NCBI RefSeq assembly: GCF_000423825.1
Contig: NZ_AUIS01000006.1
Coordinates: 124,001 to 188,000, forward strand
Direction: 5' to 3'
Length of the DNA: 64,000 bases
Origin: Thermithiobacillus tepidarius DSM 3134
GTDB taxonomy: Bacteria; Pseudomonadota; Gammaproteobacteria; Acidithiobacillales; Thermithiobacillaceae
The notes below the pieces were generated by a model. The model did no database searches and was not told the origin of the DNA. It was given only the letters and a program-made list of their open reading frames with translations. Both the position numbers and the translations under genes were made by a program. Positions 10,389 through 23,705 of the stretch are shown piece by piece; position 1 is the stretch's first letter, and the number at the start of each line of letters is the position of its first letter.

Positions 10389-10871
10389 TCAGCCTCCCAA
10401 GCGCGCGAGCACGTCCGGATGCGCAAACCAGCGCAGCTTGCCCTCCTGGGGCTTGTCCGCCCTGACCTCCAGTCCCGCCACGGCGGCGGGCTTCATGGGC
10501 AGGACCACGCCGGCCATACGCGCCACCCAATGGCTCAGGTGCGGCTCATGGCCGACGATGAGCAGTTGCGCATCCTCGTCCAAGGCCGACCAGGCGCGCA
10601 CCAGGCCGCTGAAGTCGCCGGCCGGGATGAGTTCGTTCAAGTCCACGGTCACGTCGCCCAATGCTTCGGCGACGAGTTCGGCCGTTTGCCGGGCGCGCGG
10701 CAACGGGCTGGACCAAATGCGCAGGTGCTGGGCGCCCAGCAGGCAACGCGCCAAGCCCCGGGCCGCCGCCTTCACCTTCTGGCGCCCCTCGGCGGTGAGT
10801 TCGCGCTCGAAGTCCGAGGGCCGGCTGGCGGGGTCCTCCGCCTTGCCGTGGCGCATGAAGATGATTTCCAT
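10389..10871 (-). CDS. sixA: phosphohistidine phosphatase SixA
   Basis: A 160-residue histidine-phosphatase-superfamily protein. The catalytic RHG is at residues 7-9 and the second catalytic histidine is H108 in VGHEPH. SSPLPRARQTAE is the usual substrate-pocket segment. E. coli SixA dephosphorylates phosphohistidine on the nitrogen phosphotransferase protein NPr and was first linked to the ArcB phosphotransfer domain. The target here is unknown. The start overlaps the stop of the upstream membrane-protein gene by one base (TGATG), so the two are coupled. Confidence 0.9.
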   Translation of the reverse strand: MEIIFMRHGKAEDPASRPSDFERELTAEGRQKVKAAARGLARCLLGAQHLRIWSSPLPRARQTAELVAEALGDVTVDLNELIPAGDFSGLVRAWSALDEDAQLLIVGHEPHLSHWVARMAGVVLPMKPAAVAGLEVRADKPQEGKLRWFAHPDVLARLGG

Positions 10872-11269
10872 CAGGGTTTTCCTCCGCCTGCGGTGTCGTG
10901 ACGCGGCAAGCCCAGCCAGGGCGCACGCCACGACAGAGGCAAAACGCGCGCCAGGATCGCCACCAGCGCCAGCCCGATCAGCGCCGCCATCCATTCGTCG
11001 ATGACGAACTTAAGTCCCAACTGGCGCGACCAGGCACCCACCTCGGCGGCGGCCAGGGCGCCGCCCAAAAGCAGCATGACCGGCCGCCAGATGAAGGGAC
11101 CGGCCTCGGGCCGCCAGCGGGCCAGCGCCCCGAGCAGCACCACCGCCCAAACGCCATACTCCGCCATGCGCAGCCAGACCGGCGGCTGCGGCATGGCCAG
11201 CGCCAGATTGAGGACAACGATGACGAGATACACGAGCAAGGCCGCCACGCCCCATGGGCCGAACTTCAT
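10871..11269 (-). CDS. small inner-membrane protein, unknown
   Basis: A 132-residue hydrophobic protein with about four predicted membrane segments: residues 7-26, 36-49, 60-78 and 92-110. It has a short hydrophilic tail. I do not recognise its family. AAGGAG precedes the ATG. It is translationally coupled to sixA, and follows the PAP2 phosphatase by 57 bases on the same strand, so it may be read from the same transcript as the lipid operon. Confidence 0.7.
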   Translation of the reverse strand: MKFGPWGVAALLVYLVIVVLNLALAMPQPPVWLRMAEYGVWAVVLLGALARWRPEAGPFIWRPVMLLLGGALAAAEVGAWSRQLGLKFVIDEWMAALIGLALVAILARVLPLSWRAPWLGLPRHDTAGGGKP

Positions 11270-11326: not shown

Positions 11327-11869
11327 TCAGTAGGGAAAGAGACTCAGCACGGCGTAGCTGCTGGCGCCCGCGATCAGCGCGCCGAGCGCCGCGCCCACCA
11401 CCACGTCCGATGGATAATGCAGGCCCAGCGCCACCCGCGACACGGCGATCAGCACCGCCAGCGGCCAGATGACGAGCGCCAGGGCCGGGAAGAAGATCTG
11501 CACCACCACCGCGGCGCTGAAAGCATTCATGGCATGGCCGGAGGGGAAGGACCAGTCGTCCAGGGGCGGCAGGGCGGTATGCAGATCGGCCATCACCTCG
11601 AACGGGCGCGGGCGCGAGGTGCGCCGCTTCACCAGCTTGAAAAGGGCGATGCAGACGCCGGTGGCGATGCTGGCGGCCAGCAGGCCGCGCCAGGCCGCCA
11701 GGCCCTGCCACCAGAGCACCACCATGACCAGCGTATACCAGGCCACGCCGTCGCCCAGGCGGCTGGCGAAAACCATGGTACTGCAAAACAGGCTGCGCTC
11801 CAGCCCGTGGTTGAGCCAACGCAGGATGCGGCACTCGTGCAGAATCACCCGTTCTCCCAAGGCACTCAT
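11327..11869 (-). CDS. PAP2-family membrane phosphatase
   Basis: A 180-residue integral membrane phosphatase with all three PAP2 motifs. Motif 1 is K81-x6-R88-P89, motif 2 is PSGH at 109-112 and motif 3 is S144-R145-x5-H151-x3-D155. The family removes phosphate from phosphatidic acid, phosphatidylglycerol phosphate or undecaprenyl pyrophosphate. The start overlaps the upstream glycosyltransferase stop by four bases. In this operon, phosphatidic acid phosphatase activity yielding diacylglycerol is the most economical reading, but undecaprenyl pyrophosphatase cannot be excluded. Confidence 0.88.
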   Translation of the reverse strand: MSALGERVILHECRILRWLNHGLERSLFCSTMVFASRLGDGVAWYTLVMVVLWWQGLAAWRGLLAASIATGVCIALFKLVKRRTSRPRPFEVMADLHTALPPLDDWSFPSGHAMNAFSAAVVVQIFFPALALVIWPLAVLIAVSRVALGLHYPSDVVVGAALGALIAGASSYAVLSLFPY

Positions 11870-13026
11870 TTCGACGCTCCTTGCATGGTGGCGAAAGCAT
11901 CCGGATCTTGCGTCAAGAGATGCAGGTACCGCTGTTCCAGACCATCAAACACGTGCTCCCAGCTCTGGCGCTCCGCCTGGCGGCGGGCGGCGAAGCCCAG
12001 GGCGCGGCGGCGCGACGGGTCCTGACAAAGCGCGGCCAAGGGTTCGGCCAGATCCGCCGACGGGGGCACCAGCAGGCCGTCCTGGCCGTGCGCCACCCGC
12101 TCGTTGACGCCGGGGCTGTCGAAAGCCACCACCGGCAGGCCGCTGGCCTGCGCTTCCAGCACCACGTTGCCGAAGGTCTCGCTGCAGGACGGAAAGGCGA
12201 AAATGTCGGCGCTGGCGTACCAGCGGCTCAGATCGGCGCCCCGCTGCACCCCCGCCAGCACCACGCCGGCGGGCGTGGCGGCCTGCAGGCGTGCCAGCAG
12301 CGGCCCGCCGCCCACCAGGGCCAAACGCAACTTGTCCCGCTGCGGTGCCGGCAGGCGTTCGCGCAGGCGCTGGAAAGCATCCAGCAGCACCGGCAGGTTT
12401 TTCTCGTAGGCGAGACGCCCCACATAAAGCAGCAGCGGGTCGTCAGGCCCCAGCCCCAGGCTGGCCCGCAGCGCCGCATCTCGGTGACGCGGATGGTAGA
12501 GCGCGCCGTCCACCCCGCGCGACCAGATCTCCACGCGCTGGAAGCCCTGGGACAGCAGGCGCGCGCGGGTGCTCTCGCTGGGCACGAGAGTGACCTCGGT
12601 GCGGTTGTGGAAGTGGCGCAGATAGGTGCGGGCCAGGGTTTCGAAGGAACCCAGTCGGTAGTGGCCCGCGTAGTGATCGAAATTGGTATGGAAACTGCTG
12701 GCGATGGACAGACCCAAACGCTCGGCGGCGCGCAGGGCGGCCCAGCCCAGGGGGCCCTCGGTGGCGATGTGCACGAGCTCCGTGGATGCCTGCGCCAGAA
12801 GACGGCGGAGGTGGCCCGCGCCGGCCAAGCCAATGCGCACCTCACGATAAAAGGGCAACGCCAAGCCGGGCACGAGCGTCGGCGCGGCCGCTTCGCCCGC
12901 CTGCCGGGGACGGATCACCTGGACGGCGTGGCCGCGCGCGCGGAATGCTTCCACCCAGCGCCCCAGCGTCATGGCAACGCCATTGACTTCCGGCGGAAAG
13001 GTTTCCGTCACCAGCGTCAGGCGCAT
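11866..13026 (-). CDS. GT4-family glycosyltransferase, putative lipid glycosyltransferase
   Basis: A 386-residue GT-B fold enzyme. The N-terminal acceptor domain begins MRLTLVTETFPPEVNGVAMT and contains SSFHTNFDHYAGHY, a motif shared with diacylglycerol and phosphatidylinositol glycosyltransferases such as SqdX, PimB and Agt. The C-terminal sugar-nucleotide domain has LLYVGRLAYEKN and the E-x7-E motif in SETFGNVVLEAQ. No membrane helix is obvious, so it is probably peripheral on the inner membrane. It overlaps the lipid kinase gene by 10 bases and the PAP2 gene by 4. The sugar donor and exact acceptor are unknown; a diacylglycerol acceptor is inferred from similarity and context. Confidence 0.88.
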   Translation of the reverse strand: MRLTLVTETFPPEVNGVAMTLGRWVEAFRARGHAVQVIRPRQAGEAAAPTLVPGLALPFYREVRIGLAGAGHLRRLLAQASTELVHIATEGPLGWAALRAAERLGLSIASSFHTNFDHYAGHYRLGSFETLARTYLRHFHNRTEVTLVPSESTRARLLSQGFQRVEIWSRGVDGALYHPRHRDAALRASLGLGPDDPLLLYVGRLAYEKNLPVLLDAFQRLRERLPAPQRDKLRLALVGGGPLLARLQAATPAGVVLAGVQRGADLSRWYASADIFAFPSCSETFGNVVLEAQASGLPVVAFDSPGVNERVAHGQDGLLVPPSADLAEPLAALCQDPSRRRALGFAARRQAERQSWEHVFDGLEQRYLHLLTQDPDAFATMQGASK

Positions 13027-13904
13027 TCCGCAGTACCCCCCTTTGCTTGTTCTTGCGGCAAAAATATAGTTATCGCATCAGGGCAGACAGCAATTCGACA
13101 GGGCGTGCGGCCCAGGAGTTCACCGTCCACCTGCACGTAGGCCGGCGGTTTGGCCTCTACTTCGAGCTCGGCGCAACGCAGGTAGGTGACCTCGGGATCC
13201 CGCAGGTGAACCCCCCGCATGATCTCCCATGCGTATTTCAACATTTTAAGCGGGCCTTGTCCCGAGAAGATACATACATCCAGCAAGGCGTCGTGGGTAT
13301 CAGCCCTAGGTGTGATGGAGAACGGCCCGCCGTAGAGGCGCGCATTGCCCGCCACCAAGGCTCCCGCCGACCAGCAGTGCCCGTCGGCGATCACGCGCAG
13401 CGCATGCCCCTTGTAGCCCGCCAGGGTGCGCAGGCCCACCAGCACGTAAGCCCAGCGGCCCAGACGGCGCTTCAAGCCGAGGCTGACCCGGGATACGACC
13501 TCGGCGTCAAAGCCGATGCCCGCCATCAGCATGAAGTAGCGGCCGTTGATGCGCCCCAGGCTCAGTGCCCGCGCGCGCCCCTGCTCCAGCAGCGCCAAGG
13601 CCGCCAGCGGATCGCCGGGCAGCGCCATCTCGCGGGCGAAGACATTGGTGGTGCCGGCCGGAATGATCAGCAGGGGCACGCCGCTGCCGGCCAACCCGTT
13701 GATCACCTCATTGACCGTGCCATCGCCGCCGACGACGATCACCGCGCGCACCCCGAGGGCGGCGGCCTCGCGGGCGAAGGCGGTGGCCGCGCCGCGACTG
13801 CCGGTCTGCCGGCAAAGGCATGTCTCCCGGGATTCGAGATGGCGCCGGACCTGCTCGCCCACCTGCCGGGCGTGCCGGCCGGCCACCGGGTTGACGATCA
13901 GCAT
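13017..13904 (-). CDS. diacylglycerol-kinase-family lipid kinase (YegS/DagK type)
   Basis: A 295-residue lipid kinase with the ATP-binding signature GGDGTVNEVINGL and the family segments LIVNPVAG at the N-terminus and IIPAGTTNVFAREM. A C-terminal beta domain ends in VDGELLGRTPCRIAV. The frame stays open to an ATG at 13952 (311 residues), but the predicted PhoB-dependent transcript would begin at about that ATG. So I place the start at 13904, where the protein begins MLIVNPVAG as many homologues do. A leaderless message from 13952 is the alternative. It is the first gene of a lipid-kinase / GT4 / PAP2 operon with a Pho box. Confidence 0.85.
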   Translation of the reverse strand: MLIVNPVAGRHARQVGEQVRRHLESRETCLCRQTGSRGAATAFAREAAALGVRAVIVVGGDGTVNEVINGLAGSGVPLLIIPAGTTNVFAREMALPGDPLAALALLEQGRARALSLGRINGRYFMLMAGIGFDAEVVSRVSLGLKRRLGRWAYVLVGLRTLAGYKGHALRVIADGHCWSAGALVAGNARLYGGPFSITPRADTHDALLDVCIFSGQGPLKMLKYAWEIMRGVHLRDPEVTYLRCAELEVEAKPPAYVQVDGELLGRTPCRIAVCPDAITIFLPQEQAKGGTAECA

Positions 13905-13958
13905 GACAAGCCCCGGGGTGGGATGAGGTTCAAGCCGCGCCGCAGTTTGCATGGGAAG

Positions 13959-13992
13959 ATGTTAGCGCCTGGACGCTACATTTTTATGACAG
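13959..13992 (-). promoter_or_regulatory. Pho box and -10 element driving the lipid operon
   Basis: On the minus strand CTGTCATAAAAATGTAGC (13975-13992) matches the PhoB box of two CTGTCAT-like 7-mers with a 4-base spacer. After 10 bases comes the -10 hexamer TAACAT (13959-13964). The box differs at one of 18 bases from that upstream of pstS, and has the same spacing to its -10. Transcription would start near 13952. Confidence 0.8.
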
Positions 13993-14054
13993 GCGCATGA
14001 AGAATAAGTGACAAGCGGACACCTGCGCATGGACCACATGCCTGCGCGGCCAGC

Positions 14055-15566
14055 TTACCAGCGCAGTGCGAAATGGGGTGCCAGCAGTTCCCGCTCGGCG
14101 GCCAGGTCGGCGGCCAGCAGGGGCATCTGCGCCTCCCAATTGGAAGGCAGGTGGAGCCGCAGGCTGCGTTTGTCCGACAGACGCAGGCCGGGCTGAAAGG
14201 GCAGCACCCGCTGCCCGCGATGAAAGAGGATGCCCAGGCGCAGCAACACCGCCAGACGCTGCACGACGACGGCATCGGCCGCCGACAGCTCGCTGAAAAC
14301 GTCGCTGTGCAGAGGCGGCAACGCCTTGCGCTGCAGGCGCGCCAGGGTCGCCAGCACTGCTTGTTCACGCCGCGAGAAGCCGGCCAGATCCGCGTGGCGC
14401 AGGATGTACTCGCTGTGGCGGTGAAACCCCGAATGGGCGATGTCCAGCCCGATATCGTGGGTCGCCGCCGCCCAGCGCAGCCAGTCCCAGTGCACCGGCT
14501 GCAGATCCCAGCGGTCGGCGGCATCGAAAAAGCCCCTCAGCGTGCCGACGATTTCCGCATTCCGGGCCGCATCGACGTGGAAACGCTTCTGCAGCGCCTG
14601 GACGCTGCTTTCGCGGGCATCCTCGTGATGGATGCGGCCGAGCAGGTCGTAAAGCACCCCTTCGCGCAGGGCGCCGTCGGCGATCTGCAGCTCCGCGAGC
14701 CCGAGCATCTGCATGAGACCATTCAGGATGCCGAAGCCGCCGGCCAGGACCGGCACGCGCTCCGCCTTCAGGCCCTTGAGCTCGGCCAAGCGCGCGAAGT
14801 GCCGGCTGCCCAGCAGCCGCTCCCGCAGCCAGTCCATTCCAGCCCGGGTGATGCACGGACCGAAGCCGTTCGCCTCCAACACCCGCCCGATGGCGCGCAC
14901 CGTGCCGGAAGCGCCGATCGCCTGCTCCCAGCCCACGGCCTGCAGGCGCAGCAGGTAAGGCTCGACCGTCACCCGCACGCGGTCCTCCAGACTGCTCAGG
15001 GACTTGGCGGTGACTTCCGCCTGCGGGAAGTAATGCCGGGTGGCGGTCACGCAGCCGAGATGAAAGCTCTCCGCCTCGATGGGGGTAAAGCCGCGGCCCG
15101 CCACGATCTCCGTGCTGCCGCCGCCGATGTCGATCACCAGGCGCCGCTCGGCGGGCATTACCGCCAGGCTGTGCGCCACCCCCAGGTAAATCAGCCGCGC
15201 TTCCTCGCGGCCGCTGATGATCTCGATGGGGAAGCCCAGAGCCTGCTCGGCCTTGTCGATGAAACCCTCGGCCCGGGAGGCGACGCGCAGGGTATTGGTG
15301 CCCACCACCCGCACCCGGGCCGGCGACAGACCGCACAAGCGCTGGCCGAAGCGGCTCAGGGCCGCCAGGGCTTGCTCCGCCACGGCGGCGTCGATGCGGC
15401 CGTCGCCGGTGAGCCCGGCCGCCAAGCGCACGCCCTCGCGCAGCCGATCCACCAGCCGCAATCCCGCCGGTCCTTCCACCGCCAGCACCATGTGGAAGGA
15501 ATTGGAGCCCAGATCGACGGCAGCGAGGGGCTCCGCGGACTCGGGGGCGCCCGGCGCGCTGCTCAA
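14055..15566 (-). CDS. ppx: exopolyphosphatase / guanosine pentaphosphatase (Ppx/GppA)
   Basis: A 503-residue enzyme of the ASKHA fold. The phosphate-1 loop is DLGSNSFHMV (from residue 18) and the phosphate-2 loop is VIDIGGGSTEI. A C-terminal HD-like helical domain contains AAATHDIGLDIAHSG, as in long Ppx proteins. It hydrolyses inorganic polyphosphate, and some members also hydrolyse pppGpp. The start appears to be TTG at 15566, overlapping the phoU stop (TTGA). No ATG or GTG lies between the phoU stop and the catalytic loop. It is the last gene of the pst-phoU run, so polyphosphate breakdown is probably co-regulated with phosphate uptake. Confidence 0.9.
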   Translation of the reverse strand: MSSAPGAPESAEPLAAVDLGSNSFHMVLAVEGPAGLRLVDRLREGVRLAAGLTGDGRIDAAVAEQALAALSRFGQRLCGLSPARVRVVGTNTLRVASRAEGFIDKAEQALGFPIEIISGREEARLIYLGVAHSLAVMPAERRLVIDIGGGSTEIVAGRGFTPIEAESFHLGCVTATRHYFPQAEVTAKSLSSLEDRVRVTVEPYLLRLQAVGWEQAIGASGTVRAIGRVLEANGFGPCITRAGMDWLRERLLGSRHFARLAELKGLKAERVPVLAGGFGILNGLMQMLGLAELQIADGALREGVLYDLLGRIHHEDARESSVQALQKRFHVDAARNAEIVGTLRGFFDAADRWDLQPVHWDWLRWAAATHDIGLDIAHSGFHRHSEYILRHADLAGFSRREQAVLATLARLQRKALPPLHSDVFSELSAADAVVVQRLAVLLRLGILFHRGQRVLPFQPGLRLSDKRSLRLHLPSNWEAQMPLLAADLAAERELLAPHFALRW

Positions 15567-16288
15567 CCCTCTTCCAGCGCCTCGTGGGTCAGGCGGTCCA
15601 GGGTCACGTGCCGCACATCCTTGCCCTTGACCAGATAGATCACGTACTCGGCCATGTTCTTGGCATGATCGCCGATGCGCTCCAGGGCCTTGACCACGAA
15701 GAGCACATCGATGGCCCGCCCGATGGTGCGCGGGTCCTCCATCATGAAGGTGACCAGGTGGCGCAGGGCGGAACGGAACTCCGCATCCAGCGCCGCGTCG
15801 CCTTTGGCCACCTCCACCGCCACCGCCACGTCCAGGCGGGCGAAGGCATCCAGGGCGTCGCGCACCATGCGCCGCGCCCGCTCGGCCATGATGCCGACCT
15901 CGCGGAGCAGATCCGGCGTGATGATGGCCTGGTTCTGCTCGCTGACGAGCAGGGTCATGCGGGCGATCTTCTCCGCCTCGTCGCCGATGCGCTCCAGATC
16001 CGTGATGGTCTTGATCACCGCCACGATCAGCCGCAGGTCGCTGGCCATGGGCTGGCGGCGCGCCACCACCATGGTGCATTCCTCGTCGATGCGCACCTCC
16101 AGCCCATTGACCCGATGGTCGTTGGCGATCACGGTGCCCGCCAGTTCCGTATCGCCCTCGCGCAGGGCCTGGGCCGCCATGGCGATCTGCTCTTCCACCA
16201 GGCCGCCCATCTCGAGCACCAGGCTGCGGATCCCCGCCAGCTCCGCGTCGTACCGCTGATACGTGTGTTCGCTCTCGCTGATAGTCAT
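15563..16288 (-). CDS. phoU: phosphate signalling regulator PhoU
   Basis: A 241-residue all-helical protein of two repeated three-helix bundles. The metal-binding repeats appear as ITDLERIGDEAEKIA in the first half and VKALERIGDHAKNMAEY in the second. PhoU binds PstB and PhoR and keeps the Pho response off when phosphate is plentiful; it also limits PstSCAB transport. It lies nine bases downstream of pstB and is coupled to ppx by a four-base overlap. Cytoplasmic. Confidence 0.97.
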   Translation of the reverse strand: MTISESEHTYQRYDAELAGIRSLVLEMGGLVEEQIAMAAQALREGDTELAGTVIANDHRVNGLEVRIDEECTMVVARRQPMASDLRLIVAVIKTITDLERIGDEAEKIARMTLLVSEQNQAIITPDLLREVGIMAERARRMVRDALDAFARLDVAVAVEVAKGDAALDAEFRSALRHLVTFMMEDPRTIGRAIDVLFVVKALERIGDHAKNMAEYVIYLVKGKDVRHVTLDRLTHEALEEG

Positions 16289-16297
16289 GGCGTCCCC

Positions 16298-17071
16298 CTA
16301 GCCGTAACGGCCGGTAATGTAATCTTCCGTCTGCTTCTTGCTTGGATTGGTGAAAATCGTGCCGGTTTCACCGAACTCCACCAATTCGCCCAGATACATG
16401 AAGGCAGTATAGTCCGAGACGCGCGCGGCCTGCTGCATGTTGTGGGTCACGATGATAATCGTGAACTTCTCGCGCAGCTCGCTCACCAGCTCCTCGATCT
16501 TGAGGGTGGCGATGGGGTCCAGAGCCGAGGTGGGCTCGTCCAGCAGAATCACTTCCGGCTGCACCGCGATGGCGCGGGCGATGCAAAGGCGCTGCTGCTG
16601 GCCGCCGGACAGGCTCAGGCCGCTGCGCTTCAGGATGTCCTTGACCTCGTCCCACAGGGCCGCCTGGCGCAGGGCCTGCTCCACGCGCTCGTCCATTTCC
16701 GCCTTGCGCAGCCGCTCGTAGAGCTTCACGCCGAAGGCGATATTGTCATAGATGGACATGGGAAACGGCGTGGGCTTCTGGAACACCATGCCGACGCGGG
16801 CCCGCAGGCGGTTGAGGTCCTGCCGCGGATCCAGAATGTTCTGGCCATCCAGCAGCACTTCGCCCGTGGCCTTCTGCCCCGGGTAAAGGGCATACATGCG
16901 GTTGAAGACGCGCAGCAGCGTCGACTTGCCACAGCCGGACGGCCCGATGAAGGCGGTGACCTTCTGCGCGGGAATGTCCAGGTTGATGTCCTTCAGCGCC
17001 TGGGACTTGCCATAGTGGAAGTCCAGATTGCGGATGCTGATCTTGGGGGTGTCCACAGCAGAAGCGTTCAT
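16298..17071 (-). CDS. pstB: phosphate ABC transporter ATP-binding protein PstB
   Basis: A 257-residue ABC ATPase. Walker [10 protein letters not shown] is at residues 43-51, the signature is [14 protein letters not shown], and Walker [14 protein letters not shown] is followed by the switch histidine in VTHNMQQ. The segment [20 protein letters not shown] is characteristic of PstB. It powers PstA/PstC import of phosphate and is part of the phosphate-sensing complex with PhoU and PhoR. The start codon immediately follows the pstA stop. Confidence 0.97.
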
Positions 17072-17911
17072 CTAAATCTTACCTTTGCTGATGATGAAGC
17101 GGGAAAGAATGCTGAGCAGCAGAACCACCATCGTGATGACCAGGGCCCCGGCCCAGGCCAGGGCGTGCCAGTCCTCATAGGGGCTCATGGCGAACTGAAA
17201 GATCACCACCGGGACGTTGGCCATGGGTGCAAAGAGATTCGTGCTCCAGAACTGGTTGTTGAGGGCGGTGAACAACAGGGGCGCGGTCTCGCCGCTGATG
17301 CGCGCCAGCGCCAGCAGCACGCCGGTGAGAATGCCGGACATGGCGGCGCGGTAAGTCACCTTGGTAACCACGAGCCAGTATGGCGCTCCCAAGGCCAGAG
17401 CCGCCTCGCGCATGGTGCTCGGCACCAGCCGCAGCATTTCGTCGGTGGTGCGCAGCACCACCGGAATCAGGATGATGGCCAGCGCCAGCCCGCCCGCCAG
17501 GCCGGAGAAATGGCCGAGCTGCTTGACCACCAGAGTGTAGACGAACAGGCCGATGATGATGGAGGGCGCGCTCAGCAGGATGTCGTTGATGAAGCGGATG
17601 ACGCCGCCGATGCGCTGCCGGCCGGCGAACTCGCCCAGGTAAGTGCCGGCCAGGATGCCGATGGGCGTACCCACCAGGACCGCCAGCCCGATCATGATCA
17701 GGCTGCCGACGAAGGCGTTGGCCAGACCACCCGGGCTGCCGGGCGGCGGCGTGATCTCGCTGATGAGCTGCCAGTTGATGGCCTCGATGCCGTAGTCGAA
17801 GGTGGTCCACAGAATCCAGACCAGCCAAAAAAGGCCAAACAGAGTGGTCAGCACCGAAATGGACAGGTTGAAGGCGTTGAAAAAGCGCCGCCGCAGATAA
17901 AGCCAGCTCAT
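17072..17911 (-). CDS. pstA: phosphate ABC transporter permease PstA
   Basis: A 279-residue inner-membrane permease with about six membrane segments. The cytoplasmic coupling-helix motif is REAALALGAPYWLVVTKVTYRAA, in the EAA-loop position. AISGETAPLLF-like sequence (ARISGETAPLLFTA) is typical of PstA. The long open frame runs much further upstream, but the ATG at 17911 has AGGAGA close by and gives the normal family length. It lies eight bases after the pstC stop. Confidence 0.96.
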   Translation of the reverse strand: MSWLYLRRRFFNAFNLSISVLTTLFGLFWLVWILWTTFDYGIEAINWQLISEITPPPGSPGGLANAFVGSLIMIGLAVLVGTPIGILAGTYLGEFAGRQRIGGVIRFINDILLSAPSIIIGLFVYTLVVKQLGHFSGLAGGLALAIILIPVVLRTTDEMLRLVPSTMREAALALGAPYWLVVTKVTYRAAMSGILTGVLLALARISGETAPLLFTALNNQFWSTNLFAPMANVPVVIFQFAMSPYEDWHALAWAGALVITMVVLLLSILSRFIISKGKI

Positions 17912-17919
17912 GGGATCTC

Positions 17920-18879
17920 CTAACTCTCCTCGCCCGCTCTCCGCCCCAGGCGCAGCAGCAATACTTTGGCAAGCGCCAACACAATGAAGGTGATCACGAA
18001 GAGGACGAAGCCCAAGGCGATCAGGGCGGACAGGTACATCTCCGAATCCGCCTCGGCAAACTCGTTGGCCAGGGTGGAGGCGATGGAGTTGCCGGGATTC
18101 AGCAGGGACAGGCTGAAGTCGTGCGCGTTGCCGATGACGAAGGTCACTGCCATGGTTTCGCCCAGCGCGCGCCCGAGGCCGAGAAAGATGCCGCCGACCA
18201 CGGCGGTGCGGGTGTAAGGCAGCACTACGCTCCACACCACCTCCCAGGTGGTGGCCCCGAGGCCGTAGGCGGATTCCTTGAGCATGGCCGGCGTGACCAG
18301 GAAAACGTCGCGCATGATGGCGGCGATGAAGGGGATGATCATGATGGCCAGAATGATGCCGGCGGTGAGCATGCCGATGCCGAAGGGCGGCCCCTGGAAC
18401 AGGATGCCGATACCCGGAATGGCGCCCAGACGCTCGTCCATCCATGGCTCCACGTGATCGGCGAAAAACGGTGCGAAGACAAAGAGGCCCCACATGCCGT
18501 AAATGATGCTGGGAATGGCTGCCAGCAGCTCGATGGCGGTGCCGATGGGCTGGCGCAGCCAGGTGGGCGCCAGTTCGGAAATGAACAGCGCAATGCCGAA
18601 GCTCACGGGCACGGCGATGAGCAGAGCGATGAGCGAGCTGACCAGCGTGCCGTAGATGGGGATCAGCGCACCGAAGTCCTGCGCGACGGGATCCCAGCTC
18701 TTGCTGACGAAGAAGTGCCAGCCGAATTGCTGCAGGGCATCCCAGCCCCCCCAGACCAGGGAAGCGGCAATGGCCAGCAACAGAATCAGTACGAAGTAAG
18801 CCGCGAAGCTCGTCATCCCGAGGAAAAACTTGTCCCCCACGGCTGCGCGGGATGAACCGGTGTTGCCTTCTGCTTGCAC
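17920..18879 (-). CDS. pstC: phosphate ABC transporter permease PstC
   Basis: A 319-residue inner-membrane permease, the partner of PstA in the phosphate channel. It shows [15 protein letters not shown], the EAA-like loop [16 protein letters not shown], and [16 protein letters not shown], all standard for PstC. The start is GTG at 18879, with GGAGG four bases upstream; frames further upstream lack a ribosome-binding site. It is separated from pstS by 112 bases containing a stable hairpin. Confidence 0.95.
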
Positions 18880-18930
18880 GCGACCTCCGAAACCGCAGAA
18901 TTTCTTATGAGCTATGAATGCAAACTGAAA

Positions 18931-18949
18931 CGGGGCCACAAGGGCCCCG
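18931..18949 (-). terminator. hairpin between pstS and pstC (partial terminator or mRNA stabiliser)
   Basis: A perfect 7-bp stem CGGGGCC/GGCCCCG with a 5-base loop lies 42 bases downstream of the pstS stop. It is followed on the minus strand by a weakly T-rich stretch. Such a site can make pstS more abundant than the permease genes. It is not a strong terminator by sequence. Confidence 0.5.
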
Positions 18950-18991
18950 CAAGTGTACCTCAAGTCTCCCGCAGGAGCCATGAGGCCGAGA

Positions 18992-20026
18992 TCAGATTTT
19001 CAGTTCGGCCTTCCAGTAGCCTTCGATCTGCTTGACCGTCGTCGCCGGGAAAGGCACGTAGTCCAGGCTCTTGGCGATCTGCTGGCCGTTGTTCAGGAAC
19101 CAGCGGGCAAAGTCGATGACCTCCTTGTTCTGCGCCGCCGGAGCATCCTTGCGCACCAGCAGCCAGGTGGTCGCGGTGATGGGCCAGCTGTCCTTGCCGG
19201 GCTGATCGGTCATGACCAGGAAGAAGTCGCGGGTCTTGGACCAGTCGGCGTTGGCGGCGGCCGCCTGGAAGGTGGTGTCATCCGGCCGCACCACGTTGCC
19301 CGCCTTGTTCTTCATCAGACCATAGGCAATCTTGTTCTGCAGGGCGTAGGCGTATTCCACGTAGCCGATGGCGCCCTTGATCTTCTGCACGTAGGCGGCC
19401 ACGCCGGCGTTGCCCTTGCCGCCCACCCCGGTCGGCCAGGACACGGCGGTGCCTTCGCCGACCTTGCTCTTCCACTCCGGGCTCACCTTGGACAGGTAGT
19501 TGGTGAAGTTGAAGGTGGTGCCGGAGCCGTCGGAGCGGTGCACCACGTTGATCCGCATGTCGGGCAAGGGCAGGCGGGGGTTCAGGGCCTTGAGGGCGGG
19601 ATCGTTCCATTGGGTGATCTTGCCCAGATAGATGTCGGCCAGCACCTGGCCATTGAACACCATGCTGCCGGGCGCGATGCCGGGCACGTTCATGACGGGC
19701 ACGATGCCGATGATCACGCCGGGGAACTGGGCCAGGTTGTTCTTGTCCAGCTCGGCCGGCTCCAGGGGCATGTCGGTCGCGCCGAACGCCACGGTTTTGG
19801 CTTTGATCTGCGCAATACCGCCGCCGGAACCGATGGACTGGTAGTTGACGCTGTTGCCCGTGTTGGCTTTGTAGGTCTCCGCCCACTTGGACAGCACCGG
19901 GTAAATGGCGCTGCTGCCGGCGCCGGTCACCTCGGCGGCCTGCGCCAGGGAAACTGTGGCACCCAGGGTCAGGGCCACCGCGCCCATGCTCAGCGTGCGA
20001 ACGATGTACTGCGTTGCTTTAGCCAT
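18992..20026 (-). CDS. pstS: periplasmic phosphate-binding protein PstS (copy 1, soluble)
   Basis: A 344-residue binding protein with a Sec signal peptide (to about residue 31, cleavage near [10 protein letters not shown]) and no lipobox cysteine. The mature protein starts [12 protein letters not shown]. The phosphate-binding elements [16 protein letters not shown] and [12 protein letters not shown] are visible. It delivers phosphate to PstCA. GGGAG precedes the ATG. It is preceded by a Pho box and followed by pstCAB-phoU, so it is the operon's main binding protein. It shares a near-identical 225-bp internal tract with the second pstS. Confidence 0.96.
19433..19657 (-). repeat. near-identical tract shared by the two pstS genes, copy 1
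   Basis: This 225-base segment matches 20887-21111 at 220 of 225 positions with no gaps. It consists of a 114-base perfect block, a 22-base block with five differences and an 89-base perfect block. The sequence just outside the tract is clearly diverged. It encodes the region around [12 protein letters not shown]. Confidence 0.9.
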
Positions 20027-20104
20027 GAAACATCTCCCTTGAAGAAGCAAGAATTTAAGTCGAAGGACGCTCCCTGAGCCGTTCGGGCTTCCTCCGGCAG
20101 GCGT

Positions 20105-20138
20105 ATCCTATCCAAAACTTGTTACATTTTTATGACAG
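20105..20138 (-). promoter_or_regulatory. Pho box and -10 element of the pstSCAB-phoU-ppx operon
   Basis: On the minus strand CTGTCATAAAAATGTAAC (20121-20138) is a clear PhoB box. After 10 bases comes TAGGAT (20105-20110). PhoB boxes replace the -35 element at this spacing in known Pho promoters. Transcription would begin near 20098, giving a leader of about 70 bases before pstS. Confidence 0.85.
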
Positions 20139-20300
20139 TTCAAAACTTTTTGCGCATCATCAGCGCCGCCTGCGCATGCGTCGCGCGCGCCGGGCGCGGC
20201 GCTGGGCGCAGGCGTTGGACAAATAAGGCATGGTCGGGATCTGGGGAGTCGGATCGGTGGAAGGCATGGGCGCGGTTCTCCTGGAGCGGTTTGCCGCACC

Positions 20301-20334
20301 ACCCTATTCCGAAGATGTGTCAGCCTGATGACGG
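20301..20334 (-). promoter_or_regulatory. possible second, degenerate Pho box upstream of pstS
   Basis: On the minus strand CCGTCATCAGGCTGACAC (20317-20334) has two 7-mers each one base off CTGTCAT/CTGTCAC, with a 4-base spacer. TAGGGT (20301-20306) follows after 10 bases, the same geometry as the stronger site. It would give a longer pstS leader. Confidence 0.4.
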
Positions 20335-20430
20335 GTCTATTAAAGTTTTGTGACGAAAGCCCGGCTGGGCGCAAGGCGGGAATGGCCCGCCACGGTGCGC
20401 TGGACCCGGGCGGGCGACGACCAAGGGGGA

Positions 20431-21474
20431 TTAGGCAGGCGACTGACCGGCTTTGAGCTCCGTCTTCCAGTAGTTTTCGATCAACTGCACCGCCGCGGGC
20501 GGCAGGGGCACGTAATCGAGCTGCGTCGCGATCGGCGCACCGTTGGCCAGGGACCAGCGGAAGAAGTCCAGCACGGCCCTCGTTTTTTCCGCGTTGCCCT
20601 GCCGGGGCACCAGAATCCAGGTGGCGGCCGTGATGGGCCAGCTGTCCTTGCCGGCCTGATCGGTCAGGATCAGATAGAAGTCGCGGGTCTTGGCCCAGTC
20701 GGCGTTGGCGGCGGCCGCCTGGAAGGTGGCCTGGCTGGGGGCGACCACCTGCCCCGCCTGATTTTGCATCTTGCCGTGCACCATCTTGTTCTGCAGGGCG
20801 TAGGCGTATTCCACGTAGCCGATGGAGCCGTTCAGGCGCTGCACGTAGGCGGCCACGCCCTCGTTGCCCTTGCCGCCGACGCCACCCGGCCAGGACACGG
20901 CGGTGCCTTCGCCGACCTTGCTCTTCCACTCCGGGCTCACCTTGGACAGGTAGTTGGTGAAGTTGAAGGTGGTGCCGGAGCCGTCGGAGCGGTGCACCAC
21001 ATTGATCCGCAGATCAGGCAACGGCAGGCGGGGGTTCAGGGCCTTGAGGGCGGGATCGTTCCATTGGGTGATCTTGCCCAGATAGATGTCGGCCAGCACC
21101 TGGCCATTGAAGGTGATGCCGCCGGGCTGGACGCCGGGCAGGTTGACCACCGGCACGATGCCGATGATGACCGCCGGGAACTGGGCCAGCTTGTCCTTGG
21201 CCAGCTCCTCGGGCGCGAGCGGCTTGTCCGTGGCGCCGAAGTCCACGGTGCCGGCCTTGACCTGCGCAATGCCGGCGCCGGAGCCGATGGATTGGTAGTT
21301 GACATTTGTCTTGGCTTGGGATTTGTACGCCTCGGTCCACTTGGACAGCACGGGGTAGATGGCGGTGGAGCCGGCGCCGTTGATCTGGGTGGCCCGCCCG
21401 CCGCAACCGACGAGACCTGCGCCGACGGCCAGCACACCGAAACCGTAAAGCAGGATTTGCTTCTTCTTATCCAT
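20431..21474 (-). CDS. phosphate-binding protein PstS (copy 2, predicted lipoprotein)
   Basis: A 347-residue PstS paralogue. It begins MDKKKQILLYGFGVL and has a lipobox L21-V-G-C24, so it should be anchored to a membrane by lipid, unlike the soluble copy. The binding elements SGAGIAQV, FGATDKPL and [12 protein letters not shown] are kept. AAGGAGAGG precedes the ATG. It starts 42 bases after the phoR stop and is probably read with phoBR. A tethered second binding protein could serve at different phosphate levels or share the same permease; that is inference. Confidence 0.93.
   Translation of the reverse strand: MDKKKQILLYGFGVLAVGAGLVGCGGRATQINGAGSTAIYPVLSKWTEAYKSQAKTNVNYQSIGSGAGIAQVKAGTVDFGATDKPLAPEELAKDKLAQFPAVIIGIVPVVNLPGVQPGGITFNGQVLADIYLGKITQWNDPALKALNPRLPLPDLRINVVHRSDGSGTTFNFTNYLSKVSPEWKSKVGEGTAVSWPGGVGGKGNEGVAAYVQRLNGSIGYVEYAYALQNKMVHGKMQNQAGQVVAPSQATFQAAAANADWAKTRDFYLILTDQAGKDSWPITAATWILVPRQGNAEKTRAVLDFFRWSLANGAPIATQLDYVPLPPAAVQLIENYWKTELKAGQSPA
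20887..21111 (-). repeat. near-identical tract shared by the two pstS genes, copy 2
   Basis: Partner of 19433-19657: 220 of 225 positions are identical without gaps. The identity includes synonymous codon positions, whereas the 5' parts of the genes and the bases directly flanking the tract differ. Confidence 0.9.
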
Positions 21475-21516: not shown

Positions 21517-22821
21517 TCAAGCCTGGCCCAGGCGCTGTGCCGGGAAATGCACGCTGAAGCGGCTGCCCCGACCTGGGGCACTTTCCAGCTCGAGCCGGCC
21601 ATCATAGCGCGCGGCCGCATGCTTGACGATGGACAGTCCCAACCCTGTGCCGCCGCTGGCGCGGGAGCGCCCTTTGTCCACCCGATAGAAACGCTCCGTC
21701 AACCGGTGCAGGTGCTCGGGCGGAATCCCCTCACCCGTATCCTCCACGATAAAAACCGCCTCTTCGCCCTGCCGCCGCCAGACCACGTGGATGCGCTCGC
21801 CGGCAGGTGTGTATTTGACCGCATTTTCGATCAGATTGCGCACGATGCTGGTAATGTCGAGGCTGTGCGCCTGCAGGCAGAGCGCCCGATCCAGATCCGT
21901 GCTGAGCCGCAGCTGCTTGCTCTGCACCTGCTCTTGCATGGCCGACAGAGTCTGCTCCACCAAGCCGGCCGGACAGACGGCCTCACCCGGCTGGGGGGGC
22001 GCACCGGCCTCCAAACGCGCCAGCGTCAGCAGATCATCGACCAGATCCTGCATGCGCGCCGTCTGCTGCGCCATCAATTGCAGGTAGCCCAGTGCTTCGT
22101 CGTTGCCGCAGCCTGGCGTGTCCTGCAGGGTTTCGATGAAGCCGCTGACCACCGTGAGCGGACTGCGCAGCTCGTGCGACACATTGGCCACGAAGTCCCG
22201 GCGCACCTGCTCGAGCTGCAGCAGACGACTGATGTCGCGAAAGACCATGAGGCTATGGCCGTTGGGCAGCATATAGCGGTTGCCTTCCAGGGTGCGTTCC
22301 GGCAAGGCCGGTGCCGGCAGCTGGATGGTGCCGGGCGCGCCTGCCTCGAAAAAGGCCAGGAAGCGGGGATTGCGCACCAGATAGCTCAGGGGCTGACCCC
22401 GGTCCGTCGGCCAGCGCAGGCCGAGCAAGCGGGCGCAGGCGCGGTTGGCCCACAGGATCTGGCCAGCGGGATCCAGCAGCAAGAGGACATCCGGCAGGAT
22501 GTCGATGGCCTCGCGGAACTGGGACATGGCCTCGTTCAACTGCTGGCGCTGCTGCTCTTCCCCTTTGCGCCAGCGATAGCCGAGGGAGAAGATCTCCTCC
22601 CATTGGCCGCTGGCGGGCGGCGGCAGGACGTTGTCCGGCGAGGCGAACCATTGGCGCAGCTTGTGCACTTGGCTGCGATGCCAGGCAACCCAGAAGACGA
22701 GCACCAACAGGGCAAGGATGGCCATGGCCCGGCAGATCGGATGCGCGCAGCCAAGCCATACGGGCGCAGCGCCCAGCCCCGCCAGCAGCGCCGGCGCCAG
22801 CCAGTTCCGCACGCTCAGCAT
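21517..22821 (-). CDS. phoR: phosphate-regulon sensor histidine kinase PhoR
   Basis: A 434-residue kinase. Two hydrophobic segments near the N-terminus (about residues 8-24 and 32-48) anchor it with almost no periplasmic part, as in other PhoR. A PAS domain (about 105-200) follows. The dimerisation domain has H216 in VSHELRSPL. The ATPase domain has NLIENAVKYTP, EDTGEGIP and GGTGLGLS. It phosphorylates PhoB when the PstSCAB-PhoU complex signals low phosphate. It lies 103 bases downstream of phoB, with a strong hairpin between them. Confidence 0.96.
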   Translation of the reverse strand: MLSVRNWLAPALLAGLGAAPVWLGCAHPICRAMAILALLVLVFWVAWHRSQVHKLRQWFASPDNVLPPPASGQWEEIFSLGYRWRKGEEQQRQQLNEAMSQFREAIDILPDVLLLLDPAGQILWANRACARLLGLRWPTDRGQPLSYLVRNPRFLAFFEAGAPGTIQLPAPALPERTLEGNRYMLPNGHSLMVFRDISRLLQLEQVRRDFVANVSHELRSPLTVVSGFIETLQDTPGCGNDEALGYLQLMAQQTARMQDLVDDLLTLARLEAGAPPQPGEAVCPAGLVEQTLSAMQEQVQSKQLRLSTDLDRALCLQAHSLDITSIVRNLIENAVKYTPAGERIHVVWRRQGEEAVFIVEDTGEGIPPEHLHRLTERFYRVDKGRSRASGGTGLGLSIVKHAAARYDGRLELESAPGRGSRFSVHFPAQRLGQA

Positions 22822-22879
22822 GGCCGCCGGTGATGCGCGGAGCGCAAAATGTGGGAACGGGCCAGAAAACGGTGCCGCT

Positions 22880-22905
22880 GGCGACCGGCCCCCGCGCCGG
22901 TCGCC
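22880..22905 (-). other. perfect 10-bp hairpin between phoB and phoR
   Basis: GGCGACCGGC and GCCGGTCGCC pair over 10 bp with a 6-base GC-rich loop. It lies 19 bases past the phoB stop on the minus strand. A run of four T appears only about 12 bases further on, so it may attenuate transcription into phoR or protect the phoB message rather than terminate fully. Confidence 0.6.
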
Positions 22906-22924
22906 TCACGCCTGAGCGGTGGGG

Positions 22925-23653
22925 TCATGGTGCGGAGGACAGCAACGGGGTCTCGGCCCGGAAGCGATAGCCCGAGCCGCGCACGGTTTCAATGTAGTTT
23001 TCGCAGCCAAAGGGCTCCAGCGCCTTGCGCAAACGCCGGATGTGCACATCCACGGTGCGCTCCTCGACATAAACCTGCTGGCCCCAGACCCGGTCCAGCA
23101 GGGCGTTGCGAGTAAAGACCCGCTCGGGATGGGACATGAGAAAGCGCAACAGCTTGAACTCGGTCGGTCCCAGATGCAGCTCCACGTTGCCGGCGAAGAC
23201 CCGATGCGATTGCAGCTCCAAGCGCAGGATGCCCACATTCAACGTGCGCTGATCCTGGCCCTTGTACGCGCGGCGCAGCACAGCCTTGACCCGCGCCACC
23301 ATTTCCTTGGGCGAAAAGGGCTTGCTGATGTAGTCGTCGGCGCCCGACTCCAGGCCGCGCACCCGGTCGCTCTCCTCGCCGCGGGCCGTGATGAGCATGA
23401 TCGGCAAGTGCTCGCTGTCCTCGTCCCGCCGCAAGGTCCTGCACCAAGCGAGCCCGCTCTCGCCGGGCAGCATCCAATCGAGGATGAGCAGCTGCGGGTG
23501 CCAACTCTTCAGGATGGGATCGGCCGCCTCCACGCTGTCCACGCACTGGACCACGTACCCTTGGCGCACCAGGGAAACCCGGATCAATTCCTGAATGCCC
23601 GGTTCGTCCTCCACCACCAGGATGCGAAAGGGCTGCTCCGTTTTTTCTTCCAT
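22925..23653 (-). CDS. phoB: phosphate-regulon response regulator PhoB
   Basis: A 242-residue OmpR-type regulator. The receiver domain has the acidic pair E15/D16 in VVEDEPG, the phospho-acceptor D59 in LILDWMLPG and the lysine in YISKPF. The C-terminal winged helix ends RLRKALEPFGCENYIETVRGSGYRF, the DNA-recognition region. The ATG at 23653 is preceded by AGGA; a GTG 27 bases upstream has no ribosome-binding site. It is the first gene of the minus-strand phosphate locus and the predicted activator of both Pho boxes described here. Confidence 0.96.
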   Translation of the reverse strand: MEEKTEQPFRILVVEDEPGIQELIRVSLVRQGYVVQCVDSVEAADPILKSWHPQLLILDWMLPGESGLAWCRTLRRDEDSEHLPIMLITARGEESDRVRGLESGADDYISKPFSPKEMVARVKAVLRRAYKGQDQRTLNVGILRLELQSHRVFAGNVELHLGPTEFKLLRFLMSHPERVFTRNALLDRVWGQQVYVEERTVDVHIRRLRKALEPFGCENYIETVRGSGYRFRAETPLLSSAP

Positions 23654-23705
23654 GGCCACGTCCTGCTTTAGGCTTTCCACACGATTTCAGAGACTTGCGC
23701 GGCTC

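Follow-up and report, generated by a model that had tools for sequence, protein, structure and literature searches.

A putative PhoB-controlled membrane-lipid remodelling operon in a PlcP-less proteobacterium

Introduction

By what route do bacteria without the phospholipase PlcP obtain the diacylglycerol needed for phosphate-sparing glycolipids? In PMC4796936, lipid remodelling in heterotrophs is tied to PlcP, and phosphatases are left to cyanobacteria. The question is raised by Thermithiobacillus tepidarius, a member of the order of Acidithiobacillus with a genome that is 100% complete, in which a 64,000-nucleotide stretch (the whole of the DNA analysed, hereafter the window) carries genes for a lipid kinase, a GT4 glycosyltransferase and a PAP2 phosphatase behind the phosphate-response genes. 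We posit, with moderate confidence, that this trio is a PhoB-controlled membrane-lipid remodelling operon, related to the PlcP-Agt pathway but lacking PlcP.

Genomic context of the operon

The trio follows the minus-strand genes phoB-phoR-pstS1-pstS2-pstC-pstA-pstB-phoU-ppx (Table 1), and several relatives have a GT4 gene directly behind ppx. A sequence-only reading of the window had placed the trio beside this locus, had put the gene overlaps at 10 and 4 bases, and had noted an SSFHTN motif in the GT4; the gene order, the motif and the overlaps (13017-13026 between kinase and GT4, 11866-11869 between GT4 and PAP2) are all borne out, the start of the kinase being uncertain between ATGs at 13952 and 13904. 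Pfam domains are DAGK_cat and YegS_C in the kinase, Glyco_transf_4 and Glycos_transf_1 in the GT4, and PAP2 in the phosphatase. The catalytic motifs of all three genes are intact: the kinase has GGDGT and a C-terminal DGE, the GT4 has E283-x7-E291 and TEGPLG, and the phosphatase has KRRTSRPRP, PSGH and SRVALGLHYPSD. The operon is real and functional-looking. It may have five genes, since the overlapping genes for a small membrane protein and a SixA-like phosphohistidine phosphatase keep their order behind GT4-PAP2 in G001, a genome of the same family. The window also holds two tandem pstS paralogues (18992-21474), and in the space between the two lie two distinct Pho-box clusters; the relatives inspected have one pstS in their pst operon.

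Table 1. Features of the operon and of the adjoining phosphate locus (positions in the window).
Feature	Position	Strand	Evidence
Pho box, four 7-bp half-sites, 11-bp spacing	13975..14014	-	window scan and shuffles
DagK/YegS-family lipid kinase	13017..13952 (start maybe 13904)	-	PF00781, PF19279; TIGR00147 above cut-off
GT4 glycosyltransferase, Agt kind, probable UDP-sugar:diacylglycerol glycosyltransferase	11866..13026	-	Pfam, neighbourhoods, tree, motifs, fold
PAP2 lipid phosphatase, GT4-linked subfamily	11327..11869	-	PF01569; subfamily profile 257 bits
Small membrane protein, no known family; possible fourth operon gene	10871..11269	-	same place in G001
SixA-like histidine phosphatase; possible fifth gene	10389..10877	-	TIGR00249 above cut-off; conserved in G001
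ppx, exopolyphosphatase (start approximate)	14055..15560	-	NCBIfam-type profile and relatives' loci
phoU	15563..16288	-	TIGR02135 above cut-off
pstB, pstA, pstC, two tandem pstS (18992-20050; 20431-21474)	16298..21474	-	gene calls, relatives' loci
phoR 21517-22821; phoB 22925-23680	21517..23680	-	PhoB: TIGR02154 above cut-off
Two Pho-box clusters between pstS genes	20110..20345	-	window scan

Pho control

The 102 bp that separate ppx from the kinase gene hold the Pho box TTGTCAC-TTAT-TCTTCAT-GCGC-CTGTCAT-AAAA-ATGTAGC, with the 11-bp period of PhoB sites, and the three-repeat score of this gap is reached in 0.07% of shuffles. Across the 64-kb window, to which this ranking applies, four 18-mers match at 11/14 or better with at least 4/7 in both halves, one of them here and three between pstS1 and pstS2. 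One of the inter-pstS sites, at 20121-20138, reads CTGTCATAAAAATGTAAC, nearly the same as the operon's CTGTCATAAAAATGTAGC, and CTGTCATAAAAATGTA of the operon's box has a letter-for-letter match in one of the inter-pstS clusters. The box claimed directly before the operon is thus present and among the best in 64 kb, but it runs past 13992, where the sequence-only reading had ended the locus, to 14014.

Beyond the host, the GT4 gene of G001 is preceded by a Pho-box-like TCGTCATAAAACTGTCTT where ppx ends (L119:8803). Among 97 GT4 loci, matches of at least 10/14 lie upstream in 46%, against 7% of shuffles, and matches at 11/14 in 19%, against 1%; judged by the former excess in upstream sites, Pho control extends to a large part of the GT4 family. 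In the two loci with a comparable trio (see below), the site ahead of PAP2 in L221 is no better than shuffles (10/14, in 27% of them), the one ahead of its PlcP reaches 11/14 (1.8% of shuffles), and the L219 trio has no convincing Pho box upstream. Taken together, the window scan and the 97-locus survey support Pho control, which we consider very likely for this operon; the literature searched on the Acidithiobacillus Pho regulon yielded no title on it.

The GT4 glycosyltransferase

Within 1.5 kb of the GT4 gene in 80 named loci of the family lay the phosphatidylserine decarboxylase Psd (31 loci), the lysophospholipid transporter LplT (22), the PlcP-like metallophosphoesterase (14), the small diacylglycerol kinase DgkA (9) and PAP2 (8), and the neighbours are mostly lipid genes, including that for UDP-glucose dehydrogenase (Ugd). 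Measured against proteobacterial GT4s that adjoin PlcP or occur in Pseudomonas, the window's enzyme falls into the Agt group (41-50% identity), and in the tree the PlcP-linked GT4s form a group related to it. In the proven pathway of P. aeruginosa, adjacent PlcP and Agt1 act with a separate Agt2 that makes glucuronosyl-diacylglycerol (PMC8528852). One Pseudomonas GT4 (L182) adjoins PlcP, just as agt1 and plcP are paired in the proven case (PMC8528852), and shares TEGPLG and other conserved positions with the window's enzyme. Since the latter matches the separate GT4 of a P. alcaligenes genome (L046, 335 bits) better than the PlcP-paired L182 of that genome (149 bits), it appears closer to the Agt2-like kind, L046 being equated with Agt2 from its gene place.

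The predicted structure is a confident GT-B fold (pLDDT 91.8) that resembles BshA, PimB', MshA, PimA and sucrose-phosphate synthase alike, and names neither acceptor nor donor sugar. For the donor, glucuronate is our favoured guess, because Ugd is encoded in the host genome and lies directly behind GT4-PAP2 in two species of Lampropedia (GT4-PAP2-UDP-glucose dehydrogenase runs at L103:9734-11182 and L109:9887-11260). For the acceptor, diacylglycerol is likely, and the glycolipid role assigned by the sequence-only reading gains comparative support from the lipid-gene neighbours and Pho boxes. A phospholipid such as phosphatidylglycerol would instead be the acceptor if the enzyme resembled N-acetylglucosaminyl-PG synthase, whose model (GlcN_PG_synth, NF053787) is its best NCBIfam match, and the operon would then modify phospholipids rather than replace them. 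We regard this as improbable: the score of 170.7 bits is far under the curated cut-off of 480, so that membership of that family is rejected, the Pseudomonas relatives L046 and L182 also match this model best (136.5 and 66.7 bits), so that the match reflects a wider group, and Pho control speaks against a phosphorus-containing product.

Evolutionarily, the GT4s of the Planctomycete loci L039, L040 and L041 are closer to the window's enzyme (61-65% identity) than are those of Acidithiobacillus relatives (53-59%), which makes horizontal transfer likely. Two further arrangements recur. In L056, L062, L101 and some 28 further loci, most of them beta-proteobacterial, a Psd gene faces the GT4, in 22 cases behind LplT, which makes GT4-Psd(-LplT) a very common phospholipid-glycolipid gene neighbourhood. 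A second GT4 type, perhaps for a second sugar transfer, stands beside the first or beside PAP2 (L121:10062-11300, L094:8466-9716, L221:10656-12035).

Absence of PlcP

A profile built from nine GT4-linked PlcP-like proteins found no match in the complete host genome, which extends the absence noted by the sequence-only reading from the window to the whole genome; nor does the genome hold a phospholipase C of PF04185. That the operon is an ordinary PlcP-Agt pathway whose PlcP was simply missed is very improbable. The GT4 does belong to the PlcP-linked group, but the same search recovers PlcP at E<1e-110 in 29/29 genomes of the order outside the host's family, and we consider this explanation refuted at the sequence level, barring an unrelated phospholipase C. 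The same-family genome G001 gave a weak, unconvincing match of 31 bits.

Within the order, the GT4 is partnered by a PAP2 in the host and G001 alone. The profile also found no PlcP in three more genomes that carry the GT4-PAP2 pair, those of L087, L103 and L109. Across the proteobacterial GT4 genomes, PlcP is absent from 5/13 with PAP2-GT4 and from 0/67 others (p = 5e-5, uncorrected for kinship), PAP2 and PlcP occurring together in the remaining 8/13. Collapsed to lineages, the contrast is 3/11 versus 0/about 10 and is not significant, so that replacement of PlcP by PAP2 is suggested rather than proven. A GT4 with neither a clear PlcP nor this PAP2 subfamily occurs outside Proteobacteria, in several Planctomycetes and one Opitutales genome.

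A GT4-linked PAP2 subfamily

The phosphatase has the KX6RP, PSGH and SRX5HX3D motifs and the fold of the PAP2 superfamily. When 369 species of the class were searched with the PAP2 profile, which avoids the bias of loci selected for their GT4, 68 had a match at E<1e-20, about 50 of them above 150 bits. Of 43 members inspected, 40 adjoin a GT4 gene, 38 on the same strand, with a chance adjacency of roughly 1.6% per locus; the exceptions are L258, L262 and L274. Because PAP2-linked GT4s are scattered across the GT4 tree, the pairing appears to be old or to have arisen repeatedly. The subfamily is also found in clusters that hold PlcP, such as GT4-PlcP-PAP2-GT4 (L094, L228, L257).

On balance, we favour a PAP2 that would supply diacylglycerol. 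The suggestion that it could do so in place of PlcP finds comparative backing in its position where PlcP would stand, but PAP2 is less likely to be a substitute only: as some genomes have both it and PlcP, it probably serves as an additional source of diacylglycerol, drawing on new phosphatidate with or without PlcP. Two points count against this model. Known PAP2 lipid phosphatases face the periplasm, and the GT4 and the kinase are expected in the cytosol, so that lipids must cross the bilayer; moreover, PAP2 enzymes in general act on several lipids.

We think it unlikely that the phosphatase acts instead on lipid A or undecaprenyl diphosphate, in phosphate salvage or envelope synthesis, and that the GT4 makes its glycolipid with diacylglycerol from ordinary turnover. 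Structural likeness leans this way: by sequence profile, a PGP phosphatase (54.0 bits) and LpxE (53.5 bits) come closest among solved structures, LpxE ranks first by fold, and the confident PAP2 model (pLDDT 95.5) is about equally like LpxE and B. subtilis PGP phosphatase. The best NCBIfam match is the undecaprenyl-diphosphatase SepP, at 66 bits far under its cut-off of 250; with PRK11837 (36 vs 229 bits) and PgpB (29 vs 261 bits) also well below theirs, membership of these undecaprenyl-diphosphatase and PgpB families is rejected. The tie of the subfamily to GT4 genes across many lineages, and its presence in several that lack PlcP, fit a diacylglycerol supplier better.

The lipid kinase

The kinase has the hallmarks of the YegS/DagK family (GGDGT ATP loop, DAGK_cat and YegS_C domains); it reaches no equivalog cut-off and is a putative diacylglycerol kinase. 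Within the order it is private to the host genome, none lying between ppx and GT4 in G001 and Acidithiobacillus relatives, and we read it as a lineage-specific insertion between the Pho box and the GT4 gene. A second YegS-like copy in the host genome (contig C17) belongs to another branch, together with that of G001. The nearest relative in 369 genomes of the class (36-39% identity) belongs to L221, a PAP2-GT4-DagK cluster facing PlcP-GT4 and close to phoBR. In the Gallionellales locus L219, DgkA-GT4-PAP2 repeats the window's order with an unrelated kinase, and Rhodocyclaceae, Zoogloeaceae and G045 likewise have DgkA together with GT4 and PlcP. A kinase beside an opposing phosphatase, which the sequence-only reading called unusual, is therefore not a one-off, as diacylglycerol kinases of two unrelated families recur there. 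Outside Proteobacteria, kinase and GT4 are associated in an Opitutia GT4-GT4-DagK-PlcP cluster (L059:718-4852).

The strongest pointer to conversion of diacylglycerol to phosphatidate as the activity required is that two unrelated kinases occupy this slot, and we lean towards a kinase that would return diacylglycerol in this way. Its absence from the ppx-GT4 interval of the relatives, together with moderate tree support (94/86), would also suit a passenger that entered the locus recently, downstream of the Pho box, and is unrelated to the role of GT4 and PAP2. We doubt this, given the cluster around its nearest relative beside phoBR and PlcP, the occurrence of DgkA in that slot in L219 and in the vicinity of other GT4s, the 10-base overlap of the kinase gene with the GT4 gene, and the Pho-dependent DagK already reported in Pseudomonas (PMC5082522).

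Proposed pathway

The predicted induction, substrates, products and direction of flux would be as follows. Under phosphate shortage, PhoB would switch on the operon through the Pho box; PAP2 would dephosphorylate phosphatidate, releasing phosphate and diacylglycerol, and the GT4 would transfer glucuronate or glucose from the UDP-sugar onto the diacylglycerol, giving a phosphorus-free glycolipid. The DagK-type kinase would turn surplus diacylglycerol into phosphatidate, limiting toxic lipid, and would restore phospholipid synthesis once phosphate returns. In species with PlcP, PlcP would dismantle old phospholipid while PAP2 diverts new phosphatidate.

More tentatively, the PAP2 subfamily may be an overlooked, widespread third component of phosphate-starvation lipid remodelling in proteobacteria, a phosphatidate phosphatase dedicated to the GT4 that channels new phosphatidate into glycolipid, stands beside PlcP in many species and replaces it in several lineages; DagK or DgkA would then complete a reversible phosphatidate-diacylglycerol cycle. 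The bacterial lipid-remodelling literature searched did not mention the subfamily together with PlcP. Its frequency in the sampled class and its near-constant place beside a GT4 make a second, de novo route testable, and if that route exists, the gene markers for predicting lipid remodelling, which now rest on PlcP, would widen.

Comparison with known systems

PAP2 or a diacylglycerol kinase is also linked to a diacylglycerol-producing enzyme in the mcr-1-hpap2 and mcr-3-dgkA cassettes and in eptA-dgkA, where the main enzyme is a phosphoethanolamine transferase and the context colistin resistance, whereas the window operon has a glycosyltransferase (PMC7559476). Pseudomonas putida BIRD-1, with Pho-dependent PlcP, DagK, OlsAB and TuaD, resembles the host in having a lipid kinase and UDP-glucose dehydrogenase in the phosphate response, but the excerpts of PMC5082522 do not describe them as one operon with GT4 and PAP2. 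Closer in chemistry is the phosphatidate-phosphatase route to glycolipids suggested for cyanobacteria in PMC4796936, citing Nakamura et al. 2007, in which a phosphatase likewise yields diacylglycerol from phosphatidate; the window differs in being a proteobacterial Pho-box operon whose phosphatase gene overlaps the glycosyltransferase gene. The PlcP-Agt pathway (P. aeruginosa PlcP, Agt1 and Agt2, PMC8528852; marine bacteria, PMC4796936) shares with the window a GT4 of the same group, a Pho box at the promoter and the expected phosphorus-free glycolipid. Since the host genome has no PlcP-type metallophosphoesterase, the operon, which carries a PAP2 phosphatase and a putative diacylglycerol kinase, counts as a variant of this pathway and not as a member.
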